From NCBI RefSeq assembly GCF_001270265.1, contig NZ_LGAP01000010.1:62001-126000 (forward strand): 64,000 nt of DNA, in the 5' to 3' direction. Shown piece by piece: positions 26,290-52,244 of this stretch. The stretch's first letter is position 1. The number at the start of each line of letters is the position of its first letter. The DNA is from Ensifer adhaerens. Its GTDB lineage: Bacteria > Pseudomonadota > Alphaproteobacteria > Rhizobiales > Rhizobiaceae. The notes beneath the pieces were generated by a model. The model was not told the DNA's origin. It saw only the letters and a program-made list of their open reading frames with translations, and did not search any database. Made by a program: the position numbers and the translations under genes.

Positions 26290-26318
26290 ATACGCGGTTT
26301 TCCGCGAAAAGGAGTTCC

Positions 26319-35070: not shown

Positions 35071-35781
35071 GTGAAGAGCGGAAAGAACGGTCTCTACGAC
35101 GATCTCAAGCGTCAGATTTTGACGATGGAACTTGATCCAGACCAAGACTTGGATGAGGTCAGTCTAGGTGAGCAATACGGGCTGTCTCGCACGCCCGTCC
35201 GGGAAATTTTCCGGCGGCTTGAGGGGGAGGGCTACATCGACATCCGCGCCAACCGTGGCGCGCGGGTCATCCCGATGAACCATCAGACGCTCAGGCACTT
35301 CTTTCTCGTCGCGCCGATGATCTACGCGGCGATCGGTCGCCTCGCGGTCCAGAACTTCAAGCAAAGGCAGCTTGGCGACCTCAAGGATACGCAGGAGCGG
35401 TTTCGCGCGGCCAGCGTGACCGGCGATGCACTCTCGATGGTGCTCGCGAACAACCGCTTTCATGAAATCATTGGCGAAATGTCCGGCAACGCCTACCTGC
35501 AGCCGAGCCTTGGCCGGCTTCTGATCGACCACGCACGGATCGGCCACACCTTCTTCCGACCCCGCAACGACGACATGCGCCAACGTCTTCAGGTCGCCGT
35601 GGAGCATCACGACGGCTTCATCGCCGCGATCGGTTCACATGACGAAGACACCGTCGTCGATCTGGTCTTCGAGCACTGGGAATTGTCGCGCGAGAACATG
35701 GAAATGTTCATCGCACCGGAGGGAATGAAGGCGGACGCGCTCGTGGAAGTCCCCGCTGCATCGATGGAGAAATCATCTTGA
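35071..35781 (+). CDS. GntR-family regulator (FCD/FadR subfamily)
   Basis: 236 aa from GTG 35071 with a strong AGGAGGG site. The winged HTH reads LYDDLKRQILTMELDPDQDL then LGEQYGLSRTPVREIFRRLE and GYIDIRANRGARVIPM, standard for GntR. The FCD effector domain follows, with metal-binding type His/Asp positions in NNRFHEIIGEMSGN and AVEHHDGFIAAIGSHDEDTV. It leads the hydroxyproline-type cluster, its stop overlapping the next start by 4 bp (TTGA). It is therefore probably the cluster's local repressor, responsive to a pathway intermediate. Confidence 0.9.
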   Translation: MKSGKNGLYDDLKRQILTMELDPDQDLDEVSLGEQYGLSRTPVREIFRRLEGEGYIDIRANRGARVIPMNHQTLRHFFLVAPMIYAAIGRLAVQNFKQRQLGDLKDTQERFRAASVTGDALSMVLANNRFHEIIGEMSGNAYLQPSLGRLLIDHARIGHTFFRPRNDDMRQRLQVAVEHHDGFIAAIGSHDEDTVVDLVFEHWELSRENMEMFIAPEGMKADALVEVPAASMEKSS

Positions 35782-36689
35782 AGTTCGAAGGTATTTATAC
35801 CCCGGCGATCACGCCGCTCGGACGGGACGGGCAGATAGACCGCGAAGCCTTCGCTGCCGTGCTTGAATCGCTGATTGAGGCGAAGGTACACGGCATTATC
35901 GTGGGCGGATCAACGGGTGAGTACTACGCCCAAAGTGCCGAGGAGCGCATCGATCTTGCTGCCTTCGCTAAGGACGTCATTGGCTCACGCCTGCCGCTCA
36001 TTGTTGGAACCGGTGCGACGAGAACCGAAGACTCGGTAGCTTATGCAATTGCCGCCAAGGAGATCGGTGCCGATGCGATCCTTGTGTCGTCTCCGCCGTA
36101 TGCTTTGCCGACAGCGCGCGAGAATGCGGTCCACGCACTCACGATCGACCGGGCGGCCAATTTACCGATCATGCTCTACAACTATCCCGCCCGCATGGGC
36201 GTGATGATGGGAGACGAATATTTCTCTCGCGTGGGCAGATCCAAAAACGTCGTAGCGATCAAGGAAAGCTCCGGCAACATGGCCAACCTCCATTTGTTGG
36301 CCCGGAAATTTCCGTACATTTCACTGTCCTGTGGCTGGGACGATCAAGCGCTCGAATTCTTTGCATGGGGTGCGAAGAGCTGGGTCTGTGCGGGCTCCAA
36401 CTTCCTCCCACGCGAACACGTCGCGCTATACGAAGCCTGCGTGCTGGAGAAAAACTTCGACAAGGGCCGCGCGATCATGACCGCGATGCTTCCGCTCATG
36501 GACTTCCTGGAATGCGGCAAGTTCGTCCAGTCGATCAAACACGGCTGCGAATTGATTGGCCTGAACGTAGGCCCGGTCCGGGCACCCCTGCGTCCACTCA
36601 ACTCCGAAGAGAAAAGAACGCTGCAGACTGTCGTCGCCACCTTGAAGCGCACGGTCGCCCAGATCACGTCGGGAGCCAATTATGCATGA
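35778..36689 (+). CDS. DapA/NAL-family lyase, candidate pyrroline-4-hydroxy-2-carboxylate deaminase
   Basis: 303-aa TIM-barrel Schiff-base enzyme, TTG start coupled to gntR. Family residues: GSTGEYYAQSAEER (carboxylate-binding Thr46), catalytic Tyr134 in MLYNYPARMG, Schiff-base Lys162 in VVAIKESSGNM. The set of neighbours (oxidase, semialdehyde-type dehydrogenase, proline-racemase homologue) makes the likely reaction the deamination of Delta1-pyrroline-4-hydroxy-2-carboxylate to 2-oxoglutarate semialdehyde, as for HypD/LhpC. DHDPS, N-acetylneuraminate lyase and KDG aldolase share the fold, so activity is inferred from context. Overlaps the ALDH start by 8 bp. Confidence 0.82.
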   Translation: MKFEGIYTPAITPLGRDGQIDREAFAAVLESLIEAKVHGIIVGGSTGEYYAQSAEERIDLAAFAKDVIGSRLPLIVGTGATRTEDSVAYAIAAKEIGADAILVSSPPYALPTARENAVHALTIDRAANLPIMLYNYPARMGVMMGDEYFSRVGRSKNVVAIKESSGNMANLHLLARKFPYISLSCGWDDQALEFFAWGAKSWVCAGSNFLPREHVALYEACVLEKNFDKGRAIMTAMLPLMDFLECGKFVQSIKHGCELIGLNVGPVRAPLRPLNSEEKRTLQTVVATLKRTVAQITSGANYA

Positions 36690-38199
36690 ACCCTTGACCG
36701 CCGCCGAATACAAGGCGATCGCCACGAACCTTCAATTGCCCACCAACGCGTTTATCGACGGAGCCTTTCGTCCGGCCCACTCGGGCAAGACGTTCAGGAC
36801 GACCAATCCCGCTACCGGCGAAACTTTGGCCGAGATCGCGGCTTGTGACGCCGTCGACGTGGACTTTGCTGTTGCGAATGCCAGGGCGGCCTTCGACGAT
36901 GGCCGCTGGCGTCTTCAATCGCCTGGTGATCGTAAGACCGCTCTGCTCAAGTTTGCCAAGCTGCTTGAGGAAAACCGTCACGAACTTGCCGTGATAGAGA
37001 GCCTCGACAGCGGCAAGCCGATCCGCGAGTGCCAGACCGTCGATATTCCCGACACCATTCACACCCTCCGCTGGCACGCGGAGTTGATTGACAAGCTTTA
37101 TGACAACACCGCTCCAGTCGCTTCGAACGCGCTGACATTGGTGGTGCGTGAACCCGTCGGCGTTGTCGGCTGCGTCCTGCCGTGGAACTTCCCCCTTTTA
37201 ATGCTGGCCTGGAAGATTGGCCCGGCGCTCGCCTCAGGGTGCTCCGTGATCGTCAAGCCTGCGCAGGAGACGACGCTCTCTACTCTGCGCGCAGCGGAAC
37301 TCGCCCATGAGGCTGGGATTCCGGCGGGCGTCTTCAACGTCGTTACCGGTAGCGGTAAGGATGTGGGAGAGCCGATCGGCATGCATATGGACGTTGACAT
37401 GGTGGCGTTCACCGGTTCGACGCCGACTGGCCGTCGTTTCCTGCACTACGCTGCCGATTCCAATCTGAAGCGTGTCGTCTTGGAATGCGGTGGGAAAAAC
37501 CCGGCGGTCGTGCTTGAGGATGCGGAAGACCTCGACCTGGTAGCAGAACAAGTCGTCAACGGCGCATTCTGGAACATGGGTGAGAACTGCTCAGCCACGT
37601 CGCGGCTCATCGTTCACTCCAAGATTAAGGACGAATTGCTCGAGCGCGTCGGTGCCTACATGCGCGAATGGAAGACAGGCGATCCGCTCGATCCCGAAAA
37701 CCGCATCGGTGCCCTCGTCAGCAAAAGCCACTTCGAAAAAGTGAAATCCTTCCTCGACGACGTGAAAACCGAGAAGCTCTCGGTTGCCCATGGCGGTGAA
37801 ACACAGAAAGGCATCTTCATCGAGCCGACGGTCGTCGACGGCGTCACGCCTAAGAGCCGTCTCTTCCAGGAAGAGATTTTCGGGCCGATCCTGTCCGTGA
37901 CCACATTTGAAACCATGGCCGAGGCCCTAGCACTTGCCAACGACACCAACTATGGCCTGACGGCGTCGATTTACACCGGAAGCCTTCGAAACGCGATCAA
38001 GCTCTCGCGCGAAATCCGGGCAGGTCTCGTGACCGTCAACTGCTTCGGCGAAGGCGACGCCACCACCCCATTCGGCGGTTACAAGGAGTCTGGCTTTGGC
38101 GGGCGCGATAAGTCGATTTTCGCGCATGACAACTATTGCGAGCTCAAGACGATCTGGATCGATATCTCAGACCGGTCGGTGGACGAGACGATCCGATGA
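36682..38199 (+). CDS. NAD(P)-dependent aldehyde dehydrogenase, candidate 2-oxoglutarate semialdehyde dehydrogenase
   Basis: 505-aa cytoplasmic dehydrogenase. Coenzyme loop GCVLPWNFPLLMLAWKIGPA, FTGSTPTGRRFLHYAA, general-base Glu in VVLECGGKNPAVV, nucleophile Cys in NMGENCSATSRLIV, and the EEIFGPILSVTTF and FGGYKESGFGG segments are all intact. Sequence style is closest to PuuC/betaine-aldehyde type enzymes. In this cluster it most likely oxidises 2-oxoglutarate semialdehyde to 2-oxoglutarate. An aminoaldehyde substrate (as in polyamine or betaine breakdown) is the main alternative. ATGA overlap with the FAD oxidase gene. Confidence 0.88.
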   Translation: MHEPLTAAEYKAIATNLQLPTNAFIDGAFRPAHSGKTFRTTNPATGETLAEIAACDAVDVDFAVANARAAFDDGRWRLQSPGDRKTALLKFAKLLEENRHELAVIESLDSGKPIRECQTVDIPDTIHTLRWHAELIDKLYDNTAPVASNALTLVVREPVGVVGCVLPWNFPLLMLAWKIGPALASGCSVIVKPAQETTLSTLRAAELAHEAGIPAGVFNVVTGSGKDVGEPIGMHMDVDMVAFTGSTPTGRRFLHYAADSNLKRVVLECGGKNPAVVLEDAEDLDLVAEQVVNGAFWNMGENCSATSRLIVHSKIKDELLERVGAYMREWKTGDPLDPENRIGALVSKSHFEKVKSFLDDVKTEKLSVAHGGETQKGIFIEPTVVDGVTPKSRLFQEEIFGPILSVTTFETMAEALALANDTNYGLTASIYTGSLRNAIKLSREIRAGLVTVNCFGEGDATTPFGGYKESGFGGRDKSIFAHDNYCELKTIWIDISDRSVDETIR

Positions 38200-39542
38200 T
38201 CACAAAGTCCGTCAAACGTTTGCCTGTCGAAAATGGCATCTCGGGCTGGGAGGCGATCAGTCAACGTTCGTTCCCGGTCCGTTGCCTAGACGGCAACGTG
38301 ACCGCGGACTGGCTGATTATTGGTGCAGGCTTTGCAGGTCTTTCTGCCGCCCGTCGCCTTCTTGAGCTACGGCCCGACGATAAGATTGTGGTCATCGATG
38401 CGAGCGAAGTGGGGAAGGGGACATCGGGCCGGAATTCGGGATTTATGATCGATGTCCCCCACAACCTCTCGTCCAGTGAGTATTCAAGCGGCGGCGCTGA
38501 CGCAACTAGAATTGAGATGGCGCAAAACCGCTCGGCGATAGCCTTTGCGTCCGAGGCGGCGGCGGAGTATGGGATGTCGCGCGAGACGTTCGATCCGTCT
38601 GGAAAGATAAACGCGGCCGCAACCGCACGCGGCATGAAGCTGAACCAGAGCTTCGGCGTATCACTGAAGAGCGCCGGCGAGAAACATACGTTCCTCGATG
38701 CCGCCGAAATGCGCGATCTCACGGGATCGGACTACTATCTCGGCGGGCTGTACACGCCGGGCGCTGTTCTGATCCAGCCCGCGGACTATATCCGCGAATT
38801 TGCCGCCGGGCTTTCGCGCAGGATCGACATCTTCGAACGCTCGCCTATCACCGCGTTGAAGCGCGAGAATGGCACTTGGACCGCCGTTTCTCCGTGGGGC
38901 AGGGTGACAGCCCGCAAGGTTATCCTAGGCGTCAACGGTCACATCGATGACTTTGGCCATTTCCGCGGGCGACTGATGCACATCTTCGCTTACGCGTCGA
39001 TGACCGCGGCTTTTCCTTCGGACGATTTCGGCCGTAAGGTTTCGGGGCGCGACGGATGGGCGCTGCTTCCCGCCGACGCAATGGGTGCGACCGTCAGGAA
39101 GATCACATCCGGTGGCCAGTCGCGCATCGCGATCCGGACGAAATATACGTACGACACCACCGTCACCGTGACAGGACGGCGTCTCGCGAAGATGGCGGAG
39201 GCGCATCGCAAATCACTCGACGCGCGGTTTCCAGGTCTCAAGGGGATACCATTCGACCATTGCTGGGCCGGGCGGATTTGTCTCAGCCTGAACCACGTGC
39301 CTGCCTTCGGCGAGATTGAAGAGGGACTTTTCTCCGCCTGCTGCGAAAACGGGCTAGGCACGGTGAAGAGTACGCTCGCTGGGATGATGGCAGCCGAGCT
39401 GGCGACCGGGACCACCTCCCGGCATCTCGAAAAATATATGGATCATCCCGAGCCGTCCCGGCTTCCGCCGGAGCCGTTCGCGTGGCTGGGCATCAACTCG
39501 GTGATCCGTCTGCAGGAATTGCGTGCAGGCCGCGAGGGATGA
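38196..39542 (+). CDS. FAD-dependent amino acid oxidase (DAO family)
   Basis: 448-aa flavoprotein; ATG 38196 in an ATGA overlap with the ALDH stop. The Rossmann FAD motif DWLIIGAGFAGLSAARRLLE starts near residue 38, followed by GKGTSGRNSGFMID, a flavin-contact motif of the DadA/PuuB/glycine-oxidase type. The C-terminal HCWAGRICLSLNHVPAFGEI and CCENGLGTVKSTLAGMMAAE are typical of gamma-glutamylputrescine/D-amino acid oxidases. In the cluster it would oxidise a cyclic D-amino acid (for example cis-4-hydroxy-D-proline) to the pyrroline. No membrane anchor. Substrate is inferred. Confidence 0.85.
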   Translation: MITKSVKRLPVENGISGWEAISQRSFPVRCLDGNVTADWLIIGAGFAGLSAARRLLELRPDDKIVVIDASEVGKGTSGRNSGFMIDVPHNLSSSEYSSGGADATRIEMAQNRSAIAFASEAAAEYGMSRETFDPSGKINAAATARGMKLNQSFGVSLKSAGEKHTFLDAAEMRDLTGSDYYLGGLYTPGAVLIQPADYIREFAAGLSRRIDIFERSPITALKRENGTWTAVSPWGRVTARKVILGVNGHIDDFGHFRGRLMHIFAYASMTAAFPSDDFGRKVSGRDGWALLPADAMGATVRKITSGGQSRIAIRTKYTYDTTVTVTGRRLAKMAEAHRKSLDARFPGLKGIPFDHCWAGRICLSLNHVPAFGEIEEGLFSACCENGLGTVKSTLAGMMAAELATGTTSRHLEKYMDHPEPSRLPPEPFAWLGINSVIRLQELRAGREG

Positions 39543-39586: not shown

Positions 39587-39622
39587 AATGAGAATGGGAA
39601 CAAAAAACTAGGAGTGAGTAAA

Positions 39623-40474
39623 ATGAAGACTTTGTGGAAAGCGCTCTGCGCCGCCGCGATGGTCGGGATGACCATGATGTCCGCTCACGCGGAAGAGAAG
39701 TCGATCACGATGGGCACGATGTCCTGGGAGGACCTCACCCCCATTTCCGGGATCACCAAGAAGGTGCTCGAGGACGCCGGCTACACGGTCAAGGTCGTGC
39801 CGTTCTCCGAGTGGGGTATCGCCTACGCCGCTCTCGGCAAAGGGGACATCCAAATCCTTGCCTCGCAGACGGATTACGTCGCTCAGGATTACTGGGACAA
39901 GAATAAAAACCGCCTGGAAAAAATCTCCCCGGTTTCGCACGGCCTCTTTCAGGGCGTCGCCGTGCCGAAATATGTAACGATCGATTCCATGGACCAGCTG
40001 AATGACAACGCCGACAAGTTCGGCGGCAAGATCGTTGGTATTGAACCGGGTTCGGGCCTGATGCGCGACACCAGCAACGCCGTCAAGGACTACGACCTTA
40101 AACTGCAGCTTGTGGAAGGCAGCACCGCCGCCATGACCGCTGCACTCAAGTCGGCCGTCGATCGGCAGGAATGGATCGCGGTCACAATCTGGGAACCGTC
40201 CTGGATGATGCAGAAGTATGACGTCAAGTTCCTCCATGATCCCAAGGCCGTTTTCCCGCCACCGCAGAGCTACTACTGGATTGGCCAGAAGGGCTTCTCC
40301 GCCGAATATCCGCATGCACGCGAAATTATCGCCAGCGTCTATGTACCGCTCGCCGACATCACCGCGATCAATGGCGCGGTCAACGACGGGAAGGCAATGG
40401 ACGATGCTATCAAGGCGTGGACTGACAGCCATACCGATCTCCTAAAGCGTTGGGGCAACATAAAGGCCGAATGA
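39623..40474 (+). CDS. Glycine betaine/proline-type ABC substrate-binding protein (OpuAC/ProX)
   Basis: 283-aa periplasmic receptor; ATG 39623 lies 8 nt after AGGAG, better than the GTG nine bases upstream. Signal peptide MKTLWKALCAAAMVGMTMMS with cleavage after SAHA. The OpuAC fold is evident: KSITMGTMSWEDLTPISGIT, EPGSGLMRDTSNAV, TIWEPSWMMQKYDVKFL. Several aromatic residues (Trp in SWEDL, SEWGIAYAAL, TIWEPSW and YYWIGQ) could form the aromatic cage that binds a quaternary or secondary ammonium. This points to a betaine, proline betaine or hydroxyproline-like ligand. It opens the transporter part of the operon. Confidence 0.9.
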   Translation: MKTLWKALCAAAMVGMTMMSAHAEEKSITMGTMSWEDLTPISGITKKVLEDAGYTVKVVPFSEWGIAYAALGKGDIQILASQTDYVAQDYWDKNKNRLEKISPVSHGLFQGVAVPKYVTIDSMDQLNDNADKFGGKIVGIEPGSGLMRDTSNAVKDYDLKLQLVEGSTAAMTAALKSAVDRQEWIAVTIWEPSWMMQKYDVKFLHDPKAVFPPPQSYYWIGQKGFSAEYPHAREIIASVYVPLADITAINGAVNDGKAMDDAIKAWTDSHTDLLKRWGNIKAE

Positions 40475-40563: not shown

Positions 40564-41655
40564 ATGAAAACAGCGATGAATGACTCCAATGAAGTATTGA
40601 TCGACTGCCAGAACGTCTGGAAGATTTTCGGCGCTCGCGCTCCAGCCGCCATTCAGGCGGTCGCAGATCGAGGCCTGTCAAAAAAGCAGATCCTCCAGGA
40701 CTTCAACTGTGTTGTCGGGGTGTCTGACGCCAGTCTCCATGTCCGCCGCGGCGAAATCTTCTGCATCATGGGCTTGTCCGGCAGCGGTAAATCGACCTTG
40801 ATCCGTTTGCTCAACCGCTTGATTGAACCGAGCCTCGGCACGATCACGGTTAAGGGAAAAGACGTCGCGAGGCTGAACGCCGCGCAGCTGCGCGACATGC
40901 GGGCACGCAACATCGGAATGGTGTTCCAGAGCGTGGCACTGCTTCCCAACAGGACCGTTCTCGAAAACGCTGCTTTCGGTCTCGAAGTTCGAGGGGTGGC
41001 CAAGGACGAACGACACAAGACTGCTCGGGCGGCGCTCGAAAAAGTCGGGCTCGCCGACTGGACTGCGCGATATCCCAACGAGTTATCGGGCGGTATGCAG
41101 CAGCGCGTTGGCCTTGCGCGAGCGCTAGCGGCCGACCCCGAAATAATCCTTATGGACGAGCCCTTCAGTGCGCTCGATCCGCTCATCCGCCGGCAGCTCC
41201 AGGACGAGTTTCGGCAATTGACAAAGTCGCTCGGCAAGTCCGCGGTGTTCATCACCCATGATCTCGAGGAAGCTATCCGCATTGGCGACCGGATCGCCAT
41301 CATGAAGGACGGCGTAATCGTGCAGGTCGGAACCGCCGAGGAAATCGTGACGAAGCCGGCCGACGATTACGTCTCCGATTTTGTCGCCGGAATTTCCAGA
41401 ATTCATCTGGTGAAAGCGCATTCAGTCATGCAGCCTGTCGCCAAATTCAGGGCCTCGCATCCCCAGCATGATGTCGAGGCACTGTTGCGAACATCACCTG
41501 ACGCGGACATCGGCGAGCTGATCGATCTTACCATGCAATCCAACCGTGACGCGGTCGCGGTCGTCGAGAATGGCACAGTAATCGGTGTCGTCACGACCCG
41601 CGCATTGCTCCGCGGCGTCGCCGGGACACCCGAGCACGAGCCCGCGGCGGCATAG
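40564..41655 (+). CDS. Glycine betaine/proline-type ABC transporter ATP-binding protein (ProV)
   Basis: 363 aa from ATG 40564 preceded by GAGGGG. ProV features: the N-terminal VWKIFGARAP and long insert before the P-loop [21 protein letters not shown]-loop MVFQSVALLPNRTV, signature LSGGMQQRVGLARALA, Walker B IILMDEPFSALDPLIR, ITHDLEEAIRIGDRIAIM. The C-terminal ~85 residues form a tandem CBS-like region (VAVVENGTVIGVVTTRALLR), which in OpuA senses ionic strength or nucleotides. Powers the two downstream permeases. Confidence 0.93.
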   Translation: MKTAMNDSNEVLIDCQNVWKIFGARAPAAIQAVADRGLSKKQILQDFNCVVGVSDASLHVRRGEIFCIMGLSGSGKSTLIRLLNRLIEPSLGTITVKGKDVARLNAAQLRDMRARNIGMVFQSVALLPNRTVLENAAFGLEVRGVAKDERHKTARAALEKVGLADWTARYPNELSGGMQQRVGLARALAADPEIILMDEPFSALDPLIRRQLQDEFRQLTKSLGKSAVFITHDLEEAIRIGDRIAIMKDGVIVQVGTAEEIVTKPADDYVSDFVAGISRIHLVKAHSVMQPVAKFRASHPQHDVEALLRTSPDADIGELIDLTMQSNRDAVAVVENGTVIGVVTTRALLRGVAGTPEHEPAAA

Positions 41656-41668
41656 GTGGAGGACGCAA

Positions 41669-42517
41669 ATGGACACCTCAATCATCACGGATCGTTTTGA
41701 CACTTGGACGGATGATGCACTTGCCTGGATCAACGACAACGGCGAGTGGCTGTTTGAATTCATCAGAATGCTTCTTGAGGGAACCTATGACGGCATCCTC
41801 TGGCTCCTTCAGCTTCCCCCGTTCTACATCATCGCAATCATCGCAGCGTTGCTCGGCTGGCGCTTAATCAACCTTGCATCCGGCATCCTCGCTGCGATCG
41901 CATTGATCTTCTGCGCTGTCATGGGGCTGTGGGCCGAAACGATGAGCACACTGGCGCTGGTGGCAACCGCTACAATCCTTGCTCTGGTTGTCGGAATACC
42001 CGTCGGTATCGTTGCTGGGTTTGTTCCATCCTTCAACCGGGTCCTTGAGCCTGTGCTCGACCTCATTCAGACCCTGCCACCTTACATTTATCTTCTGCCA
42101 GCGATCGCTCTGCTTGGTTACGGACCTGCGACAGCGCTCATCGCCACGTTCATCGTCGCGATGCCGCCCGCAATCCGGTTGACCTCGCTCGGCATCCGGA
42201 TGACGCCTCGGGAGTTCATCGAGTTGGGCCAGGCCAGTGGCCTCACGTCCTGGCAGATGTTCACGAAAATCCGACTGCCGTTCGCAATCCCAAGCATCAT
42301 GGCCGGGATAAACCAGAGCCTGATGATGGCTTTTGGAATGGTCGTCATCGCCGGCATCGTTGGGTCCGGTGGCCTCGGGGAGACGATCTATGGCGCGGTT
42401 CGAACGCTCGATATCGCCACATCCATCAATGCGGCAATTGCGATCGTCATTCTGACCATGGTGCTCGACAGGCTTACACAAAGTGCGGCTCGGCGCGCTA
42501 AGGCAGGTGGAAGATGA
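41669..42517 (+). CDS. Glycine betaine/proline-type ABC transporter permease (ProW), first copy
   Basis: 282 aa from ATG 41669 with GGTGGAGG upstream. An amphipathic N-terminus precedes six or seven helices; the core reads ETMSTLALVATATILALVVG, LDLIQTLPPYIYLLPAIALL and the EAA-like ELGQASGLTSWQMFTKIRLP. QSLMMAFGMVVIAGIVGSGG is the ProW hallmark. Overlaps the next permease by ATGA. Two separate ProW-like permeases imply a heterodimeric membrane channel. Confidence 0.93.
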   Translation: MDTSIITDRFDTWTDDALAWINDNGEWLFEFIRMLLEGTYDGILWLLQLPPFYIIAIIAALLGWRLINLASGILAAIALIFCAVMGLWAETMSTLALVATATILALVVGIPVGIVAGFVPSFNRVLEPVLDLIQTLPPYIYLLPAIALLGYGPATALIATFIVAMPPAIRLTSLGIRMTPREFIELGQASGLTSWQMFTKIRLPFAIPSIMAGINQSLMMAFGMVVIAGIVGSGGLGETIYGAVRTLDIATSINAAIAIVILTMVLDRLTQSAARRAKAGGR

Positions 42518-43377
42518 ACCTCGATCTATTTGAGTTTTCGCCGGGCGCATATCTTGCCCCTGCGGTGGATTGGTTGAATACGAACTTCCATCCATTCTTC
42601 GATGCGGTCACAAAGTTCATCGAAATGGTGCTTGGCGGGATAGAAGCCGGTCTTTTGTACCCACCTCCTTACGTGGTAATTGCCTTGGCTACCTTTCTTG
42701 CGGCGTATTTTATCACCGTCAGGGTTTCGATCGTGACGGCGGTAGCTCTCGCATTCTGCTTCGTTGCAGGGCTCTGGACGGCTTCGATGCAGACGCTTGG
42801 TCTGGTGACCGTGGCGGTCGTCATTTCGGTATCGATCGCGTTCCCGCTCGGAATCCTAGCTTCGCGCTATAAGGGATTTGAAGCCGGCATCCGCCCCGTC
42901 CTTGATATCATGCAGACCGTGCCGCCATGGGTCTATCTAATTCCGGCCGTCATGATCTTTAGCTTGGGCCGAGTGCCGGCAATCATCGCGACGATTGTGT
43001 ACGGCGTCCCTCCCATGCTGCGTCTCACCACGCTGGCGTTCAACCAGGTTCCCAAGGACCTTCTGGAGTTAGGGCAGGCAACGGGTGCGCCGCCCCGATC
43101 AATTCTGTTCAAGATCGAGATCCCATCGGCGACGCCAACGCTCTTGGTCGGCCTAAACCAGTGCATTCTTCTTTCACTGGCCATGGTCGTCCTTGCGGGT
43201 CTTGTGGGAGCCGGAGGCCTGGGTGCCGAAGTCACCCGCGGCCTGACCCGCATGGAAATGGGGCTCGGTCTTCGAGCCGGATTGGCCATCGTTGCAATTG
43301 CCATCCTCCTCGACAGGTTCTCCAAAGGCGCGCTGCAAGGCCGTCGAACGAGGGGCGCGGCAGAGACCACACACTAA
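42514..43377 (+). CDS. Glycine betaine/proline-type ABC transporter permease (ProW), second copy
   Basis: 287 aa. Same architecture as its neighbour: LDIMQTVPPWVYLIPAVMIF, coupling loop ELGQATGAPPRSILFKIEIP, NQCILLSLAMVVLAGLVGAG. Divergence between the two copies is considerable, so this is an old duplication rather than a recent one. Stop is followed 13 bp later by the racemase-family gene. Confidence 0.93.
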   Translation: MNLDLFEFSPGAYLAPAVDWLNTNFHPFFDAVTKFIEMVLGGIEAGLLYPPPYVVIALATFLAAYFITVRVSIVTAVALAFCFVAGLWTASMQTLGLVTVAVVISVSIAFPLGILASRYKGFEAGIRPVLDIMQTVPPWVYLIPAVMIFSLGRVPAIIATIVYGVPPMLRLTTLAFNQVPKDLLELGQATGAPPRSILFKIEIPSATPTLLVGLNQCILLSLAMVVLAGLVGAGGLGAEVTRGLTRMEMGLGLRAGLAIVAIAILLDRFSKGALQGRRTRGAAETTH

Positions 43378-43390
43378 GGGAAGCTAAACG

Positions 43391-44389
43391 ATGCGCCGCA
43401 GTTTCTTCTGTATCGACTCCCACACCTGCGGAAATCCTGTCCGACTTGTCGCGGGAGGAGGTCCACTATTGCCGCATCTCCCGATAGCAGAGCGACGCGA
43501 AATCTTTGTACGCGACCATGATTGGATTCGGCAGGCATTGATGTTCGAGCCGCGCGGTCACGACATGATGTCAGGGGCAATCATCTATCCTGCTTACCGA
43601 AAGGATTGTGACTTCGCTGTCATCTTCATCGAGGTTAGCGGGTGCCTGCCCATGTGCGGTGCGGGCACGATCGGTCTCGTGACAGCTGCAATAGAGGAAG
43701 GCCTGGTAACGCCACGTTCTCCGGGTAAGCTCTCGATCGAAACGCCTGCTGGAAGGGTGGACATTCAGTATGAGATGGTCGGAGACTTCGTGGAGTCCGT
43801 CCGGATGTTCAACGTCGCCAGCTATTTGCACGCCGCCGACGTCTCCGTGGACGTGCCGGGAATCGGCAGACTGGTTGTCGATATCGCCTATGGCGGGAAC
43901 TACTACGCTGTCGTCGAGCCGCAGGAGACGTGGAAGGGGTTGGACGGCATGACTGCTAGTGATGTGGTCGACTTCAGTCGCAGACTTCGCGACGCTCTCG
44001 CTCCTGTCTGCAACCCCGTTCATCCCTGGGACGATCGGATACGCGGCGTGCATCATGCTCTATGGTGCGACAAGCCGGCAAGGCCTGATGCCGATGGTAG
44101 AGGGGCTGTGTTTTATGGAGACAAAGCAATAGATCGCTCGCCAGGCGGAACGGGAACCTCGGCACGCATGGCTCAGCTTCACGGTAAGGGCCGGCTGAAA
44201 GTTGGCGAGACATTCCGCCAGGAAAGCTTGATCGGCACGGTGTTCGAAGGCCGTGTAGAGGAGGAGACTGACATTGGAAACTTCAGTGCCATCAAGCCCA
44301 GTGTGAGTGGCTGGGCGCGGATCATTGGCCACAACACGATCTTTGTGGATGATCGCGACCCGTTGGTCCACGGATTCCAGATTAGGTAG
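43391..44389 (+). CDS. Proline racemase/hydroxyproline epimerase family protein lacking catalytic residues
   Basis: 332 aa with the full family fold: CIDSHTCGNPVRLVAGGGP, FEPRGHDMMSGAI, DIAYGGNYYAVVEP, FYGDKAIDRSP, and the C-terminal NTIFVDDRDPLVHGFQ. The first catalytic Cys89 is present (PMCGAGTIG), but the usual MCGHGTIG has His replaced by Ala91, and the second site, normally SPCGTGTSAR in epimerases or SPTGT in dehydratases, reads SPGGTGTSAR with Gly252. Two-base 1,1-proton-transfer chemistry therefore seems impossible as known. It could be a one-base dehydratase or lyase, a binding protein, or inactive. It follows the betaine-type permeases by 13 bp. Confidence 0.85.
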   Translation: MRRSFFCIDSHTCGNPVRLVAGGGPLLPHLPIAERREIFVRDHDWIRQALMFEPRGHDMMSGAIIYPAYRKDCDFAVIFIEVSGCLPMCGAGTIGLVTAAIEEGLVTPRSPGKLSIETPAGRVDIQYEMVGDFVESVRMFNVASYLHAADVSVDVPGIGRLVVDIAYGGNYYAVVEPQETWKGLDGMTASDVVDFSRRLRDALAPVCNPVHPWDDRIRGVHHALWCDKPARPDADGRGAVFYGDKAIDRSPGGTGTSARMAQLHGKGRLKVGETFRQESLIGTVFEGRVEEETDIGNFSAIKPSVSGWARIIGHNTIFVDDRDPLVHGFQIR

Positions 44390-44472: not shown

Positions 44473-45468
44473 ATGAACTCTGCAAACGATGTCCCAAGCG
44501 TCAGCCGATTGAAGATTGGCTTCATTCTCGCCCGGTCGTTTACGCTTTCGGCTTTCGCGTTGTTCGTCGACACTCTGAGACTGGCCAGCGACGAGGCCGA
44601 CAAATCCGGCAGGGTCTTGGCTGATTGGCAAGTGTTGGGAAGCACCCGCCACCTGATTACCTCCAGTTGCGGCGTACAGGTGGCGCCGACATCAGATTTC
44701 ATTGACCCAAGCGAGTTTAATTACATCGTGGTCGTCGGCGGGCTACTCAACAGCGAAACGCCGGTTGACCATCACACCGTGGAGTATCTGAAGAAAGCCG
44801 CCGCACGAAAGGTTTCGTTGATCGGTGTCTGTACGGGAACGTTCATCCTGGCGGAAGCTGGTTTGATGAAGAACCACCAAAGTTGCGTGAGCTGGCTTCA
44901 TCATGACGTGTTCCGAGAACGGTTTCCGGGGCACGAAGTCAGGGCAGACCGGATTTTCAATCTCGATCGCAACCGCGGGTCGTGTGCAGGTGGCAGCAGC
45001 GCCGCAGACATGGCCGCTTACATCGTAAGACGGCATATCAGCAAAGCCGCGGAGCGAAACGCCCTCGAAGTGTTACAGATCGACAAGGCCCGCACCGCCT
45101 TGCATATCCAGCCGCGTCGGCCGCTGTCCATAGAATCCAACGATCCCCGGCTCAAGGCGGCACTCATCATAATGGAGAGGAACATCGAAAAAACCATCTC
45201 CATCGACAAACTCGCAGCGTCCGTGGGACTGTCGCGACGGCAACTCGAGCGCCTTTTCGTCGAGAAAGCCAATAGCTCGCCGGCCATCATCTATCGGCGT
45301 ATGCGCCTGGAGCGCGCAAAGCACCTCGTGATGGAGACCGACGCCCCTTTGATCGAGATCGCGATGGAAGTTGGGTTTGAAAACGCCTCCCACTTCGCGA
45401 AGGCTTTCCGAAAAGCGTTTGGCCAATCGCCAACGAAGCTGAGGGATGTAGTCGCTGCCGTTCCGTGA
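44473..45468 (+). CDS. GlxA/CdhR-type AraC regulator (DJ-1/PfpI N-domain)
   Basis: 331 aa from ATG 44473 (a GTG two codons earlier is also possible). The N-terminal glutamine-amidotransferase-like domain (IGFILARSFTLSAFALFVDT, VVVGGLLNSETPV, IGVCTGTFILAEAGLM) acts as sensor. The C-terminal AraC pair of HTHs reads ISIDKLAASVGLSRRQLERL and LIEIAMEVGFENASHFAKAF with SPTKLRD. Members of this group regulate carnitine, betaine, arginine and polyamine catabolism. Its place at the end of the cluster suggests activation of the betaine-type transporter genes. Confidence 0.9.
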   Translation: MNSANDVPSVSRLKIGFILARSFTLSAFALFVDTLRLASDEADKSGRVLADWQVLGSTRHLITSSCGVQVAPTSDFIDPSEFNYIVVVGGLLNSETPVDHHTVEYLKKAAARKVSLIGVCTGTFILAEAGLMKNHQSCVSWLHHDVFRERFPGHEVRADRIFNLDRNRGSCAGGSSAADMAAYIVRRHISKAAERNALEVLQIDKARTALHIQPRRPLSIESNDPRLKAALIIMERNIEKTISIDKLAASVGLSRRQLERLFVEKANSSPAIIYRRMRLERAKHLVMETDAPLIEIAMEVGFENASHFAKAFRKAFGQSPTKLRDVVAAVP

Positions 45469-47415: not shown

Positions 47416-47488
47416 GATCTCCCCAATTCGAACCGGAACACAGCTCTGAGGGCTGCACACCGGTAATCTTCGTGCCTTGGGGAAAACC

Positions 47489-47920
47489 ATGGATCTCCAA
47501 AAGATCAAGACGCTTCTCGACTTTGTCGGGCGTTCGCGTGTCTCGGAGCTGACAGTCAGCGATGCGGATACGACTGTCGTCATTCGCAATCCGGCGCGCG
47601 AAGCGGCAGCCAAGGTAGATATTCCGACCTCAGATGGGCGAGAGCTTTCGACGGTCAAGCCGGTAAGCCTGGATGACCAGCCGCCAACCCAGCTTGTTCG
47701 TGCTTCGACCTCAGGCATCGTGCATCACTCAAATAGCCCGGGAGCCGCTCCAATCGTAGTGGTGGGCGATCAGGTGGAAGTGGGGCAGGCTCTCTGCATC
47801 GTGGAGGCCATGAAGGTCTTCACGACGGTCTCTGCTCCGTTCGCCGGCGTGGTCAAGCGCATCTTCTTTGATGATGGCCAGGAGGTCGCCTTCGGCGACC
47901 CGCTCGTGGAGATCGGCTGA
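47489..47920 (+). CDS. accB: Biotin carboxyl carrier protein (AccB paralogue)
   Basis: 143 aa from ATG 47489 (MDLQKIKTLLDFVGRSRVSE). An N-terminal helical domain and a proline/serine linker precede the C-terminal biotinyl domain, with biotin-accepting Lys109 in CIVEAMKVFTTV. This is a carrier for a biotin-dependent carboxylation with the AccC-like protein next door. As no carboxyltransferase lies nearby and the pxp genes follow, it is probably a dedicated paralogue rather than the housekeeping acetyl-CoA carboxylase subunit. Overlaps accC by 1 bp. Confidence 0.9.
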   Translation: MDLQKIKTLLDFVGRSRVSELTVSDADTTVVIRNPAREAAAKVDIPTSDGRELSTVKPVSLDDQPPTQLVRASTSGIVHHSNSPGAAPIVVVGDQVEVGQALCIVEAMKVFTTVSAPFAGVVKRIFFDDGQEVAFGDPLVEIG

Positions 47921-49317
47921 TGGACGCGTCTTTCAAGGCCGCTCGGGAAGTCGGTCGTCCGTTCAATTCCGTCCTCATCGCCAATCGCGGCGAAATCGCC
48001 GTCCGGATCGAGCGCGCCTGCAAGGAGCTTGGCCTTCGCCCGATTCTGGTTGCCTCCGAGGCAGACAAGGCGGGGGCGGCAACACCGAGCGAAGGCGGTT
48101 CGCTCTCGATCGGACCGTCGGCGCCTGCAAGGAGTTACCTCAACCAGGCGGCGATCCTCCTTGCAGCACGCGTGACCGGCGCCGAGGCGATCCATCCGGG
48201 CTACGGGTTCCTCTCGGAAAACGCCGATTTCGCCGAGGCCGTCGAAAGGGCCGGGCTGGTTTTCGTGGGCCCTCCGGCCTCGTCAATCCGCACCATGGGC
48301 GACAAGATCGCTGCAAAGCGCGCGATGATGGCGGCAGGCGTTCCCTGCGTTCCGGGACCGGGCGAACCGCTGCCGGAGGACGTCGACGCTGTGCCCGCCA
48401 TCGCTGAGGCCATTGGCTACCCGGTCATCGTCAAGGCGGCCGGTGGCGGAGGCGGACGGGGCATGCGCGTCGTGCGCGATAGCGCCGATATCACCGACGC
48501 CGTTGCCATCACGCGCGAGGAGGCACGCCGCGCCTTCGGCAGGCCCGAACTTTACCTGGAGAAATTCCTGGAGCACCCGCGCCACGTCGAGTTCCAGATA
48601 CTCTGTGACAATCACGGCAACGCTGTCTGGGTTGGCCATCGCGATTGCTCCGTCCAGCGGCGGCACCAGAAGGTAGTGGAGGAGGCGCCCGCGCCCGGCA
48701 TCGCGCCGGAACTCGCACAGAGGATCGGCGAGCGCTGCGCGGAGGCCTGCCGGCAGATCGGCTATCGCGGCGTCGGCACCTTCGAGTTCCTCTATGAGCG
48801 CGGCGAATTCTACTTCATCGAGATGAACACCCGGCTGCAGGTCGAGCATCCAGTGACGGAGGCGACGGCCGGTGTCGATCTCGTGCACGAGCAACTGCGT
48901 GCGGCGCAGGGAGAAGTGCTCGATACGACCCGTTTTTGCGGCGAGGCGCGGGGCCACGCCTTCGAATGTCGCATCAACGCGGAGGATCCTGTCACATTCA
49001 TTGCCGCGCCCGGACGCATTTCTTACGTTCGCTTTCCGAGCGGACCAGGCATTCGCGTCGATACCCATGTCTCGGCCGGATACCAGGTCTCCCCTTACTA
49101 CGATTCCTTGATCGCCAAGCTGATCGTCCACGCGCCGACCCGGGACGAGGCGATCCGGCGCATGCAGGTCGCCCTGTCTGAAGCCAGGATCGAGGGCATC
49201 TCCACCAACCTTCCGCTGCACGAAAGGATCTTCGCCGATCCCGATTTCGTGCGGGGCTGCGTCGATATCCATCATCTTGAAAAGCGTTTGAGGGAGGAAG
49301 CTGGTGTCCAGGCGTGA
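47920..49317 (+). CDS. accC: Biotin carboxylase (AccC paralogue)
   Basis: 465-aa ATP-grasp enzyme that carboxylates biotin with bicarbonate. Visible motifs: SVLIANRGEIAVRIERACKE, HPGYGFLSENADFAE, ATP-binding IVKAAGGGGGRGMRVV, CSVQRRHQKVVEEAPAP, catalytic EMNTRLQVEHPVTE, and C-terminal YYDSLIAKLIVHAPTRDEAI. All key Lys/Glu/Arg positions look intact. Starts at ATG 47920 on the accB stop and overlaps the next gene by 14 bp. Such accB/accC pairs are often found beside pxp genes, where their role is not settled. Confidence 0.94.
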   Translation: MDASFKAAREVGRPFNSVLIANRGEIAVRIERACKELGLRPILVASEADKAGAATPSEGGSLSIGPSAPARSYLNQAAILLAARVTGAEAIHPGYGFLSENADFAEAVERAGLVFVGPPASSIRTMGDKIAAKRAMMAAGVPCVPGPGEPLPEDVDAVPAIAEAIGYPVIVKAAGGGGGRGMRVVRDSADITDAVAITREEARRAFGRPELYLEKFLEHPRHVEFQILCDNHGNAVWVGHRDCSVQRRHQKVVEEAPAPGIAPELAQRIGERCAEACRQIGYRGVGTFEFLYERGEFYFIEMNTRLQVEHPVTEATAGVDLVHEQLRAAQGEVLDTTRFCGEARGHAFECRINAEDPVTFIAAPGRISYVRFPSGPGIRVDTHVSAGYQVSPYYDSLIAKLIVHAPTRDEAIRRMQVALSEARIEGISTNLPLHERIFADPDFVRGCVDIHHLEKRLREEAGVQA

Positions 49318-49771
49318 CCGCGCGACAAGCGCATCTGCGATCGGTGACTTCTCCGATCCGGCCCTCATCTCCACGCTCACCGCCTGGCTTGGCGCTTCGG
49401 GCGCGAGCGAGCTGGAAATCAGCACGAAGGACGGGCGCGCGCTGAAGATCGTTCTGAACCCAGGCGCCAGCCCGGTGGACGTTCGTGAAGCTGCTCCGGA
49501 CGTGACCGCGCCGCGGCCCGAAGGTCGGGTCCTCAAGGCGCCCCTCGCCGGGGTGTTTCGTGACCGGCATCCCGGTGCCCCCAATGTTTCGTCGCTTGCC
49601 GGCGAGGGGACGTCGCTCGAACCGGGCGCTGTTGCCGGTTTTGTCGAGATCGGGCCCATTCTGCTGCCCGTGATCGCGCGTGAGGCGGCCGTCGTCGCAA
49701 AAGTTCACGCCCGCGCCGGAGAGTTGATCGGTTATGGCGATCCTATTTTGACGATGGAGCACGCCCAATGA
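49304..49771 (+). CDS. BCCP-like protein without the biotin-accepting lysine
   Basis: 155 aa from GTG 49304. The N-terminal 60 residues resemble the AccB helical domain (LISTLTAWLGASGASELEIS, DGRALKIVL), then linker, then a biotinyl-type barrel: LKAPLAGVFRDR...LEPGAVAGFVEIGPILLPVI and the closing IGYGDPILTME. Where AccB has VEAMKV this protein has VEIGPI; Pro118 replaces the lysine, so it cannot be biotinylated there. It is coupled on both sides by short overlaps (accC by 14 bp, pxpB by ATGA), which argues for a conserved structural or regulatory role, for example a scaffold for the AccC or Pxp subunits. Confidence 0.8.
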   Translation: MSRRDRATSASAIGDFSDPALISTLTAWLGASGASELEISTKDGRALKIVLNPGASPVDVREAAPDVTAPRPEGRVLKAPLAGVFRDRHPGAPNVSSLAGEGTSLEPGAVAGFVEIGPILLPVIAREAAVVAKVHARAGELIGYGDPILTMEHAQ

Positions 49772-50478
49772 GCCTCCTGCAAAAGGCATCCTTCCCGTCT
49801 CCCGCCTCAATCGTTCCGAATGCCGAGGGACTGGCGAAAATCTCGTTCATCGGCACGCGCGCCTTCCTGTTGGAAGCGCCTGGCCCCTTCGACCTGCCGA
49901 ATCAGCGACGCATCTGGGCGCTCTCCCGCGCGCTCGAGGCGCATGAACAGGTCGCCGAGATCGTTCCGGGCATGACGAACCTTCTGGTGATCCTCAAGGA
50001 GACCCCGGACGATCCAGACACGGTCATCCACCAGCTACAGGAGAAATGGCAGCGAGCGCAGGGTATCGATCTTGCCGGTCGGCACATCGAGATCGCCGTC
50101 ACCTATGGCGGCGAACATGCGACCGACCTGCCGGCGCTTTGCGAGCTCAGCGGCCTCAGCGACCGGGAAGTCGTGCGCATTCACCACGAAGGCACCTATC
50201 GCGTCTTCGCCCTCGGCAGTGCGCCGGGCTTCGGGTACCTGCATGGGCTAGATCCACGCATCCACATGCCGCGAAAGACCGTGCCCTCACTCAAGATGGC
50301 GCGTGGTTGCGTCACGATCGGCGGCATGCAGACCGGCGTTGCGGTGCTGACCGGCCCGAATGGATGGAATTCGATCGGCTTTGCCGAAGTCCAGATGTTC
50401 GATCCGCTGGCCGCCGCGCCAGCCGTGATGGCGCCGGGCGATACCGTGCGTTTCCGCCCCGAAAGGATCGAGTTGTGA
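49768..50478 (+). CDS. pxpB: 5-oxoprolinase subunit PxpB (KipI-like)
   Basis: 236 aa. Subunit of the bacterial ATP-dependent 5-oxoprolinase that opens pyroglutamate to glutamate. KipI-fold marks: PNAEGLAKISFIGTRAFLLE, EIVPGMTNLLVIL, then the conserved IAVTYGGEHATDLPALCELS, HHEGTYRVFALGSAPGFGYL, VTIGGMQTGVAVLTGPNGWN. The last is shared by all PxpB/KipI proteins. Overlaps pxpC by GTGA. Cytoplasmic. Confidence 0.94.
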   Translation: MSLLQKASFPSPASIVPNAEGLAKISFIGTRAFLLEAPGPFDLPNQRRIWALSRALEAHEQVAEIVPGMTNLLVILKETPDDPDTVIHQLQEKWQRAQGIDLAGRHIEIAVTYGGEHATDLPALCELSGLSDREVVRIHHEGTYRVFALGSAPGFGYLHGLDPRIHMPRKTVPSLKMARGCVTIGGMQTGVAVLTGPNGWNSIGFAEVQMFDPLAAAPAVMAPGDTVRFRPERIEL

Positions 50479-51467
50479 TCGAGATCGTCGAAACGGGCCC
50501 GCTGAACACTGTCCAGGATATGGGACGGCCGGGCTATCGCAATATCGGAGTAACCGCCTGCGGAGCAATGGATCCTCTGGCTCTGGAGATCGGCAACATT
50601 CTCCTCGGCAACCCCGAGGGCGCGGCCGTAATCGAGGTACAGACTTTCCCGTTCCGGCTGCTCTTTACCAAACGTGGCGCATTCGCCGTCACCGGTGCCG
50701 ATTGCCGGGCGAAGCTCGACGGTGTCGCCCTGGCGCCCTGGTGGGCCGGGGAAGCCGAGCCCGGTCAGGTGCTGGAGCTCTTCCCGCCGCTTCGCGATGC
50801 GCGGGCCTATGTGAGCCTGTCTGGCGGCGTGGACGTGGCGCCGGTGATGGGCTCGCGCAGCACGTCGCTGCGTGGAAGCTTCGGCGGGCTTGGTGGAAGG
50901 GTCCTTGCGGTCGGCGACAGCATCGCGACTGGTGCAGTCCAGCCTGCTGCCGTGCCAAAGGGCGGCTTCGGCGCCGTGCCGCCGGCGGTGGCTTTGAAGG
51001 ACGTGTTTCCCGTCGGCGAGAATGGCGAACTCGTCATTCGCGCTCTGCCCGCCGGCGAACATGACCTTTTCGGGGCCGACGCAGAGCGGTTCTGGAGCCA
51101 GCCGTGGAAGATCTCGGCACGCAGCGACCGCACCGGCTACCGCCTGAGCGGCGATCCGATCCATCCGGTGGAAGTGGTGGAGATGCGTTCGCACGGTGTG
51201 GTGCCCGGCGTCATACAGGTGCCTCCAGCCGGGGAACCGATCGTCCAGATGAGCGATGCCAACACGGCCGGAGGCTATCCGAAGATCGCAGGCATTATAG
51301 AGGCCGATCTCTGGCGGATGGGGCAGGCTCGCATCGGCTCGACGCTGCGCTTTGTGCCGGCCACGCATGCAGAGGCCAAGGGCATAGAGAAGGCGCTCGC
51401 CACCTATGTCGACGATATCAGGCAGACCGCGCGCCTGGTCGGCAAGGCGCTTGCCGCCATGGCATAG
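50475..51467 (+). CDS. pxpC: 5-oxoprolinase subunit PxpC (KipA/urea amidolyase-like)
   Basis: 330 aa from GTG 50475, coupled to the pxpB stop. It reads VIEIVETGPLNTVQDMGRPG, GAMDPLALEIGNILLGNP, AYVSLSGGVDVAPVMGSRST, and the C-terminal SHGVVPGVIQVPPAGEPIVQ and MSDANTAGGYPKIAGII. These are signature PxpC/KipA and urea-amidolyase C-terminal motifs. It forms the ATP-using complex with PxpA and PxpB. Confidence 0.95.
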   Translation: MIEIVETGPLNTVQDMGRPGYRNIGVTACGAMDPLALEIGNILLGNPEGAAVIEVQTFPFRLLFTKRGAFAVTGADCRAKLDGVALAPWWAGEAEPGQVLELFPPLRDARAYVSLSGGVDVAPVMGSRSTSLRGSFGGLGGRVLAVGDSIATGAVQPAAVPKGGFGAVPPAVALKDVFPVGENGELVIRALPAGEHDLFGADAERFWSQPWKISARSDRTGYRLSGDPIHPVEVVEMRSHGVVPGVIQVPPAGEPIVQMSDANTAGGYPKIAGIIEADLWRMGQARIGSTLRFVPATHAEAKGIEKALATYVDDIRQTARLVGKALAAMA

Positions 51468-51476
51468 GAGCAATTC

Positions 51477-52244
51477 ATGAAGGTGGATCTCAATTCCGAC
51501 ATGGGCGAGGGCTTCGGGCCCTATTCCCTCTGCGATGATGAGGCGATGATGGATGTCATCACCTCCGCCAACGTTGCCTGCGGCTTTCATGCCGGCGATC
51601 CGGAGACAATGGCAAGGATGGTGCGCCTGGCGCGGAAGAGGGGTGTCGATATCGGTGCGCATCCAGGCTTGCCGGACCGGCAAGGTTTCGGCCGCCGCGA
51701 ACTGCCCTTCGGACCTGACGAACTGCGCCAGCAGATGCTTTACCAGCTCGGCGCACTGATCGCGATCGCTCGTGCGGAAAGTGTGCGGGTCTCTCATGTC
51801 AGCTTCCACGCAGCAATGGGCAACATGGTCAATCGTGACCCCGCCTTGGCCGCCGCGATGATGGCCGCGATGCGCACCGTCGATCCAGACCTCATCGTCT
51901 TCGGCACGGCCGGCAGCATCATTGAACGCGCGGCGCTCGAGGCCGGGCTCAGGACGCTGCCCCTCTTCCTTGCGGACCGAGCCTACGACGCCGAAGGCAA
52001 GCTCGTGCCCCGTGGAAAGCCGGGCGCGCTCGTCAAGGAGGAGGCCCTGGTGCGCGCACGGGTGCGGCAGTTTCTGATCGAGGGGACCGTAACCGCCGTC
52101 GACGGGACCGTCATCCCCATGCGGGCTCGTTCCATCCTCGTTCACAGTGATACGCCGGGCTCGCTCGAGCTCGCCCGCACCGTCCGCAACGAAATCGAGA
52201 CGGCCGGCGGCGTGGTCACGCCCGTCTCCAAGCTTCTGGGCTGA
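51477..52244 (+). CDS. pxpA: 5-oxoprolinase subunit PxpA (LamB/YcsF family)
   Basis: 255 aa. MKVDLNSDMGEGFGPYSLCD, SANVACGFHAGDPETMARMV, GVDIGAHPGLPDRQGFGRRE and SFHAAMGNMVNRDPALAAAM show the LamB/YcsF TIM-like fold with its conserved Asp, His and Glu residues. The typical HVKPHGALYN is here the variant VSFHAAMGNM. That is a noticeable change from the usual KPHGALYN motif. Together with PxpB and PxpC it would hydrolyse 5-oxoproline, preventing build-up of this cyclised glutamate product. Confidence 0.92.
   Translation: MKVDLNSDMGEGFGPYSLCDDEAMMDVITSANVACGFHAGDPETMARMVRLARKRGVDIGAHPGLPDRQGFGRRELPFGPDELRQQMLYQLGALIAIARAESVRVSHVSFHAAMGNMVNRDPALAAAMMAAMRTVDPDLIVFGTAGSIIERAALEAGLRTLPLFLADRAYDAEGKLVPRGKPGALVKEEALVRARVRQFLIEGTVTAVDGTVIPMRARSILVHSDTPGSLELARTVRNEIETAGGVVTPVSKLLG

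Follow-up and report, generated by a model that had tools for sequence, protein, structure and literature searches.

A conserved proline racemase superfamily clade that has lost part of its catalytic pair, encoded in a betaine/hydroxyproline-type operon

The closest described relatives of the protein analyzed here are the 4-hydroxyproline 2-epimerases (4HypE) of the proline racemase superfamily (PRS) that carry a catalytic pair of cysteines. In the excerpted text of a 2014 survey of this superfamily, the prolyl nitrogen is coordinated by His90 and Asp232 in 4HypE structures, and a figure legend assigns trans-to-cis conversion by B9JQV3 to the first-motif residue and cis-to-trans conversion to the second Cys (PMC4113996). 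The same excerpts describe another PRS epimerase with Ser-Cys instead of Cys-Cys, trans-3-hydroxyproline dehydratases (t3HypD) that keep the first base only, and PRS clusters that lack one or both cysteines (PMC4113996). The subfamily described below may be among those clusters without being commented on. The pairs listed in the excerpted part of a second study are Cys-Cys, Cys-Thr, Ser-Cys and Ser-Thr, none of them with Gly (PMC4364671). The published partners of Cys-Cys 4HypE belong to the D-amino-acid oxidase (DAO), DHDPS and ALDH families, which together make up a route from D-hydroxyproline to 2-oxoglutarate (PMC4113996). Proline betaine derivatives were among the compounds screened in the survey, the excerpts of which mention no betaine activity (PMC4113996).

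We found no description of an Ala/Gly PRS subfamily or of a PRS betaine epimerase in the openly licensed PMC literature. A hydroxyproline betaine 2-epimerase of the enolase superfamily was reportedly described by Zhao in 2013 and Kumar in 2014 (as cited in PMC4113996 and PMC5144071); we take this enzyme to be HpbD, and PDB entries 2PMQ and 4H2H to be HpbD structures. Proline betaine (stachydrine) catabolism is a further point of comparison, and here we take PDB entries 4QUP and 3VCA to be stachydrine demethylase (Stc2). Proline betaine itself would not need a 4-hydroxy-acid route via DHDPS and ALDH.

The gene considered here lies in a stretch of 64,000 nucleotides from Ensifer adhaerens, hereafter the window, and belongs to a block of genes that reads as follows.

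35071..35781, plus strand: GntR/FCD regulator, with which the block opens (approximate start, placed by homology)
35778..36689, plus strand: DHDPS-family gene
36682..38199, plus strand: ALDH, candidate 2-oxoglutarate semialdehyde dehydrogenase
38193..39542, plus strand: FAD-dependent oxidoreductase of the D-amino-acid oxidase family
39614..40474, plus strand: OpuAC-type betaine substrate-binding protein
40564..41655, plus strand: ABC transporter ATPase, ProV/ChoV-like
41669..42517, plus strand: ABC transporter permease 1
42514..43377, plus strand: ABC transporter permease 2
43391..44389, plus strand: PRS protein of 332 residues, Ala91/Gly252 subfamily
43655..43657, plus strand: Cys89 codon TGC, the retained acid/base
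43661..43663, plus strand: Ala91 codon GCG, His in the sister group by alignment
44144..44146, plus strand: Gly252 codon GGC, Cys (the second base) in the sister group by alignment
44473..45468, plus strand: AraC/GlxA-type regulator

The assignment to the PRS, made from profile matches, alignment and tree, is secure at the level of fold. The profile PF05544 matches residues 7-330 of the 332 with 432.6 bits, and the AlphaFold model (pLDDT 86.5) has 6r76, 6hjg and 1w61 as its top Foldseek matches (TMq 0.91-0.93); confidence falls to a pLDDT of only 50-65 in blocks 51-60, 81-90 and 241-250, which hold the active-site loops, and lower still at the C-terminus. Relatives are annotated as 4-hydroxyproline epimerase, and the window protein scores 566.1 bits against NF010578, the NCBIfam model of that name (cut-off 376). 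An earlier sequence-only reading had called Cys89, Ala91 and Gly252 in a full-length, frame-intact gene 13 bp behind a transporter operon. The three codons stand where it placed them, the reading frame is unbroken, and the gap from the end of permease 2 is indeed 13 bp, but the gene is better described as closing the structural part of a conserved operon, in which catabolic enzymes are encoded as well as a transporter.

To place the altered residues we aligned 113 PRS proteins (108 rows distinct in sequence), from loci found with the window protein as query (best 80 and best 30 matches), a draw that samples the wider superfamily unevenly. Ala91 together with Gly252 occurs in 67 of the 113, the window protein (locus L001) included, at 69-100% identity to it (the A/G group), and His91 with Cys252 in 44, at 57-68% identity (the H/C group). 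The remaining two are remote paralogues, L003 and L004, with other motifs, and not one of the 113 has a mixed Ala91/Cys252 or His91/Gly252 state. The A/G proteins come from Rhizobium, Ensifer/Sinorhizobium, Mesorhizobium, Agrobacterium, Neorhizobium, Microvirga, Pseudomonas, Salinicola and Rhodoferax and lie together on one side of a branch with 100/99 support, so that the tree needs just one change between the two states. The genome of the window also encodes a normal His91/Cys252 epimerase-like protein, L002, at 59% identity.

The altered residues are fixed in the A/G clade. Across 59 loci all four synonymous codons are used both for Ala91 (GCC 32, GCG 18, GCA 6, GCT 3) and for Gly252 (GGC 47, GGT 7, GGA 3, GGG 2), and in 11 of 13 comparisons dN/dS falls within 0.03-0.15, with the other two saturated and dS high (1.4-2.8) for pairs that include the window gene itself. 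The A/G clade is under purifying selection. A search of 394 genomes of the family gave 22 matches at E<=1e-140, 20 of them A/G and two H/C (G018 and G242); 18 of 19 loci newly fetched from this draw were A/G and one was H/C (L152, 61% identity). Close homologues that share Ala91 and Gly252, for which the sequence-only reading had proposed to look, thus exist in number: the 67 closest proteins all carry the pair, and none has the His and Cys that a private mutation would have left in its neighbors. Its suggestion of a recent knock-out does not stand, given fixation of both residues in a clade that spans Rhizobiales, Pseudomonas, Salinicola and Rhodoferax and the low dN/dS.

Cys89, Asp248, Ser61, His222 and Tyr242, among others, are invariant in both the A/G and the H/C groups. 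The last three align with Phe62, Leu221 and Trp241 of 6j7c, a proline-racemase-like protein of T. litoralis that we take to be TlProR. For these sites the excerpted text of the second study gives Ser/Val, His and Cys/Tyr as the residues of hydroxyproline epimerases (PMC4364671), so the sites that read the 4-hydroxyproline ring are kept. On the other side of the ledger, all 67 A/G proteins have Ala91 for the His that follows MCG and Gly252 for the second Cys, so that an acid/base residue on both faces, as in Cys-Cys 4HypE, is lacking; the Thr that t3HypD enzymes have at the second position is absent too. By alignment, the A/G clade would retain the L-to-D base and the Asp, and the base for D-to-L conversion would be gone along with the His that contacts the nitrogen.

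Three further non-conservative changes set the clade apart: His221 (67 of 67 A/G proteins, none of 44 H/C), Gly236 (67 of 67 and 1 of 44) and Arg276 (66 of 67 and none of 44). At each of these positions the nearest H/C relatives, L007, L092 and L097, agree with the H/C group. Conservative differences between the groups lie at positions 65, 75, 174 and 280, and the positions where these three relatives share the A/G state include 43, 181, 209 and 314. His221, which is specific to the clade, is a candidate replacement base, but its neighbor His222 aligns with the hydroxyl-reading His of hydroxyproline epimerases. In characterized PRS epimerases both faces are served by an acid/base; we identified no replacement donor for the second face, and this counts against a one-base epimerase.

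The gene neighborhood differs between the two groups. With an orthologue defined by at least 40% identity over 60% of the length, the DHDPS, ALDH, binding-protein, ATPase and permease 1 genes each recur at 60 of 64 A/G loci, permease 2 at 61, the oxidase at 57 and the AraC/GlxA-type regulator at 42, all against none of 16 H/C loci; a relative of the GntR/FCD regulator is found at 50 of 64 and 1 of 16. The H/C control is thin: out of 44 H/C loci just 16 have long flanks, and more than 20 kb is available for 57 A/G and 9 H/C loci. A remote DHDPS homologue (26-31%) is present at six of these 16, something that a locus for plain hydroxyproline breakdown could also show. The A/G loci without the binding-protein and DHDPS genes are L050, which keeps permease 2, L082, which reaches back just 180 bp from the gene, L096 and L098; in the last, from Salinicola, a different OpuAC-type binding protein adjoins the PRS gene. 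The AraC/GlxA-type regulator has GbdR as its best NCBIfam model (225 bits, below the cut-off of 480), and this GbdR-like regulator, with the OpuAC-like binding protein, points to a betaine. The window oxidase matches no PDB chain at E<=1e-5 in a phmmer search.

Most of the operon also occurs on stretches with no PRS match. Searches with the binding protein and the oxidase as queries found four Rhodobacterales plasmid stretches: Paracoccus L114 (DHDPS, ALDH, oxidase and transporter), Paracoccus L115 (the end of an ALDH gene, oxidase and transporter, on a stretch truncated where its record begins), Leisingera L116 (DHDPS, ALDH and oxidase) and Cereibacter L117, where the DHDPS/ALDH/oxidase trio adjoins betaine-type transporter genes. 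The absence of a PRS match within these four stretches counts against a betaine epimerase of this family. An enolase-superfamily gene beside the Leisingera trio (L120) was considered as an HpbD orthologue but is not supported as one: its best matches are 2PS2 and 2PCE (533 and 473 bits) and 2PMQ/4H2H reach only 189 bits. The H/C sister loci L092 and L097 are surrounded by genes that show no evident connection, transglycosylase genes among them, and are uninformative about the ancestral pathway.

Several features around these loci are recorded here in their own right. In the gammaproteobacterial loci L074, L094 and L095 the operon oxidase is replaced by another DAO-family protein (31-32% identity); the L095 copy has L-pipecolate oxidase as its best model, below the cut-off, and by eye an MFS-like transporter adjoins it. 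The Rhodoferax locus has at its edge, beside the operon, a second, remote PRS gene (L093:2-877, minus strand; 29.5%) with the motifs MMSGGNT and DRCPCGTGT. In the window itself, positions 47477-52244 encode in one run two biotin-carrier-like proteins, a biotin carboxylase, two proteins like allophanate hydrolase/5-oxoprolinase subunits and a LamB/YcsF-like protein, which by eye from the translations form a carboxylase-linked cluster of the 5-oxoprolinase type. Positions 25650-28262, upstream of the operon, hold a gene of the GH127 beta-L-arabinofuranosidase family in the company of sugar ABC transporter genes, possibly a plant cell-wall theme (hydroxyproline-rich glycoprotein).

A betaine-demethylase-like Rieske oxygenase of the group to which 4QUP and 3VCA belong (at least 35% identity) lies within 10 kb of the PRS gene at 32 of 64 A/G loci and at none of the 16 H/C loci; the other 32 A/G loci, without such a gene in that span, weigh against a betaine. 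These oxygenases are of at least three kinds. That of L036, which adjoins the A/G gene and provides the link to stachydrine catabolism, belongs to the Stc2 group (813 bits to 4QUP), and those of eight Pseudomonas loci are 53-54% identical to it. A kind typified by Rhizobium leguminosarum is found at 22 loci (345 bits to 3VCA), and the Rhodoferax oxygenase is nearest to it (56%). None of four Rieske oxygenases tested passes the GbcA model (398-505 bits, cut-off 670).

The fullest cluster, on R. leguminosarum plasmid L118, combines the whole operon with an M24 protein, a Rieske oxygenase and its reductase, an FMN oxidoreductase, EtfB, EtfA, two DMSP-lyase-type cupins and three formaldehyde-disposal genes. 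FMN oxidoreductases and Etf proteins have roles in N-demethylation. The cupins (L118:3244-3846 and 5599-6294) match Pfam DMSP_lyase with 188 and 94 bits and lie among the FMN oxidoreductase and Etf genes. In Pseudomonas L075 the Rieske oxygenase lies on one side and the FMN oxidoreductase (78%), EtfB and AdhC on the other, and Rhodoferax L093 has a Rieske oxygenase and reductase, an MTTB methyltransferase and a PurU-type formyl-transferase. Uptake, Rieske, oxidase, DHDPS and ALDH genes stand in one cluster in L118 and L075. They are split over contigs in the genome of the window: the window has no demethylation genes, which counts against a betaine, and these sit on contig C26 (R. leguminosarum-type Rieske oxygenase, 86%, and reductase, 73%) and contig C16 (FMN oxidoreductase, 90%, cupin and EtfBA). 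The C16 cupin (L130:2001-2591) is a 65% identical orthologue of the first L118 cupin.

The A/G gene is present at 72% identity or more in 20 of the 394 family genomes. The L118 Rieske oxygenase has a match at E<=1e-150 in 41, of which 26 are at 78% or above, a cut set by eye at the gap down to 67%. This L118-type oxygenase is found in 12 of the 20 A/G genomes and in 14 of the 374 others (odds ratio 38.6; Fisher p 3.7e-11, a value overstated because the genomes are related); the eight A/G genomes without it speak against a betaine. Inspected by hand, seven of the 12 genomes with both genes have them within about 14 kb on one contig, and five, including that of the window, on different contigs. 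The FMN oxidoreductase was dropped as a marker of co-occurrence, being too common (236 of 394 genomes) to be informative.

These observations lead us to propose that the A/G protein is a 2-epimerase of an N-methylated 4-hydroxyproline, either 4-hydroxyproline betaine or N-methyl-hydroxyproline, that works with one protein base, a reading to which we give somewhat less than an even chance. We count in its favor the fixed and coupled Ala91 and Gly252, the residues kept, the operon orthologues, the co-occurring Rieske oxygenase and the further demethylation-type genes, those on other contigs of this genome included. We envision the following scenario for the substrate and its reaction, the proton donor and the sequence of steps. 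Cys89 would take the C2 proton from the L substrate; the loss of His91 and Cys252 would free space near the substituted nitrogen as well as on the other face, where water or another group would reprotonate the product. Other enzymes would then demethylate it, and the operon oxidase, the DHDPS-family protein and the ALDH would carry it to 2-oxoglutarate. Quaternization of the nitrogen makes the C2 proton more acidic, and a second protein acid could for that reason be dispensable. The sequence-only reading had allowed for a one-base enzyme of new chemistry, perhaps a dehydratase or a beta-eliminase acting on a betaine. Context best supports the one-base and betaine parts of that suggestion; as to the chemistry, we favor an epimerase over a dehydratase or beta-eliminase because the 4-hydroxyl sites, the L-to-D base and the downstream genes of D-hydroxyproline type are all retained.

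The competing account that holds up best is that of an ordinary 4-hydroxyproline 2-epimerase acting on free trans-4-hydroxy-L-proline and tolerating the loss of His91 and Cys252, for instance with water as the second acid. The protein resembles Cys-Cys 4HypE such as L002 in overall identity, fold family, Cys89, Asp248 and the residues that read the 4-hydroxyl; it is accompanied by the same DAO, DHDPS and ALDH families; its NF010578 score is far above the cut-off, and the Ser-Cys epimerase of the survey excerpts (PMC4113996) is a precedent for departure from Cys-Cys. It differs in His91 to Ala, Cys252 to Gly, His221, Gly236 and Arg276, and its loci differ in that a betaine-type transporter is encoded there and a Rieske oxygenase is often close by. 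Since this genome already has a normal protein in L002, and the pairs in the excerpted list (PMC4364671) include none with Gly, we consider a plain epimerase fairly unlikely.

Also unlikely is a PRS fold without catalytic activity that has been retained to bind the betaine or to act as a regulator in response to it. It would account for the loss of one of two bases and of the nitrogen-contacting His, for a gene placed between transporter and regulator, and for the plasmid stretches that do without the PRS, and a binding protein would likewise be kept by purifying selection. It fits poorly with the invariance of Cys89, Asp248 and the hydroxyl-reading residues, and no other gene of the window operon looks able to invert C2.

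Quite unlikely, in our estimate, is a one-base eliminase on N-methylated hydroxyproline, in which Cys89 would take the C2 proton and a leaving group would depart as in the trans-3-hydroxyproline dehydratases. The retention of the first base only is shared with t3HypD as the excerpts describe it (PMC4113996), but the A/G clade has Gly for Thr, other neighbors that are those of a 4-hydroxyproline route, and only 26-36% identity in structure matches. P5C-reductase-family genes (assigned by Pfam on the L035 copy only) stand directly 3' of the PRS gene in four rhizobial loci (L035:10803-11627, L036:10996-11799, L037:11002-11826 and L044:11012-11818), and relatives lie 4-6 kb from it in five Pseudomonas loci. 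Such a gene might serve an eliminase, and since the epimerase pathway that we propose does not need it, it counts against our proposal; it is near the PRS in only nine loci in all. A strain-specific inactivating mutation or a sequencing error, for which TGC to GGC is a single base, is refuted for practical purposes by a state common to all 67 A/G proteins, by synonymous variation at both codons and by low dN/dS.

It is nearly certain, then, that the A/G proteins form a PRS subfamily that is conserved and under selection, that their catalytic pair is reduced, and that their operon is of the betaine/hydroxyproline type. As NF010578 passes proteins without the catalytic pair, the 4-hydroxyproline epimerase labels on the A/G clade are probably wrong and the name over-extended. 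A bolder form of the one-base epimerase proposal, which we hold more tentatively, is that the clade is a new branch of the PRS in which a quaternary betaine is epimerized by a single protein base, the Cys and His having been traded away together to fit the N-methyl groups. It would share with HpbD its reaction and its position in the pathway, the equivalence being one of reaction only between unrelated folds (enolase superfamily and PRS), and would thus be an independent solution. A clade that has dropped one base and is yet selected in a catabolic operon tests the need for two protein bases when the substrate nitrogen is quaternary. If the proposal is true, the A/G protein supplies the epimerase that a betaine pathway of rhizobia and pseudomonads calls for.
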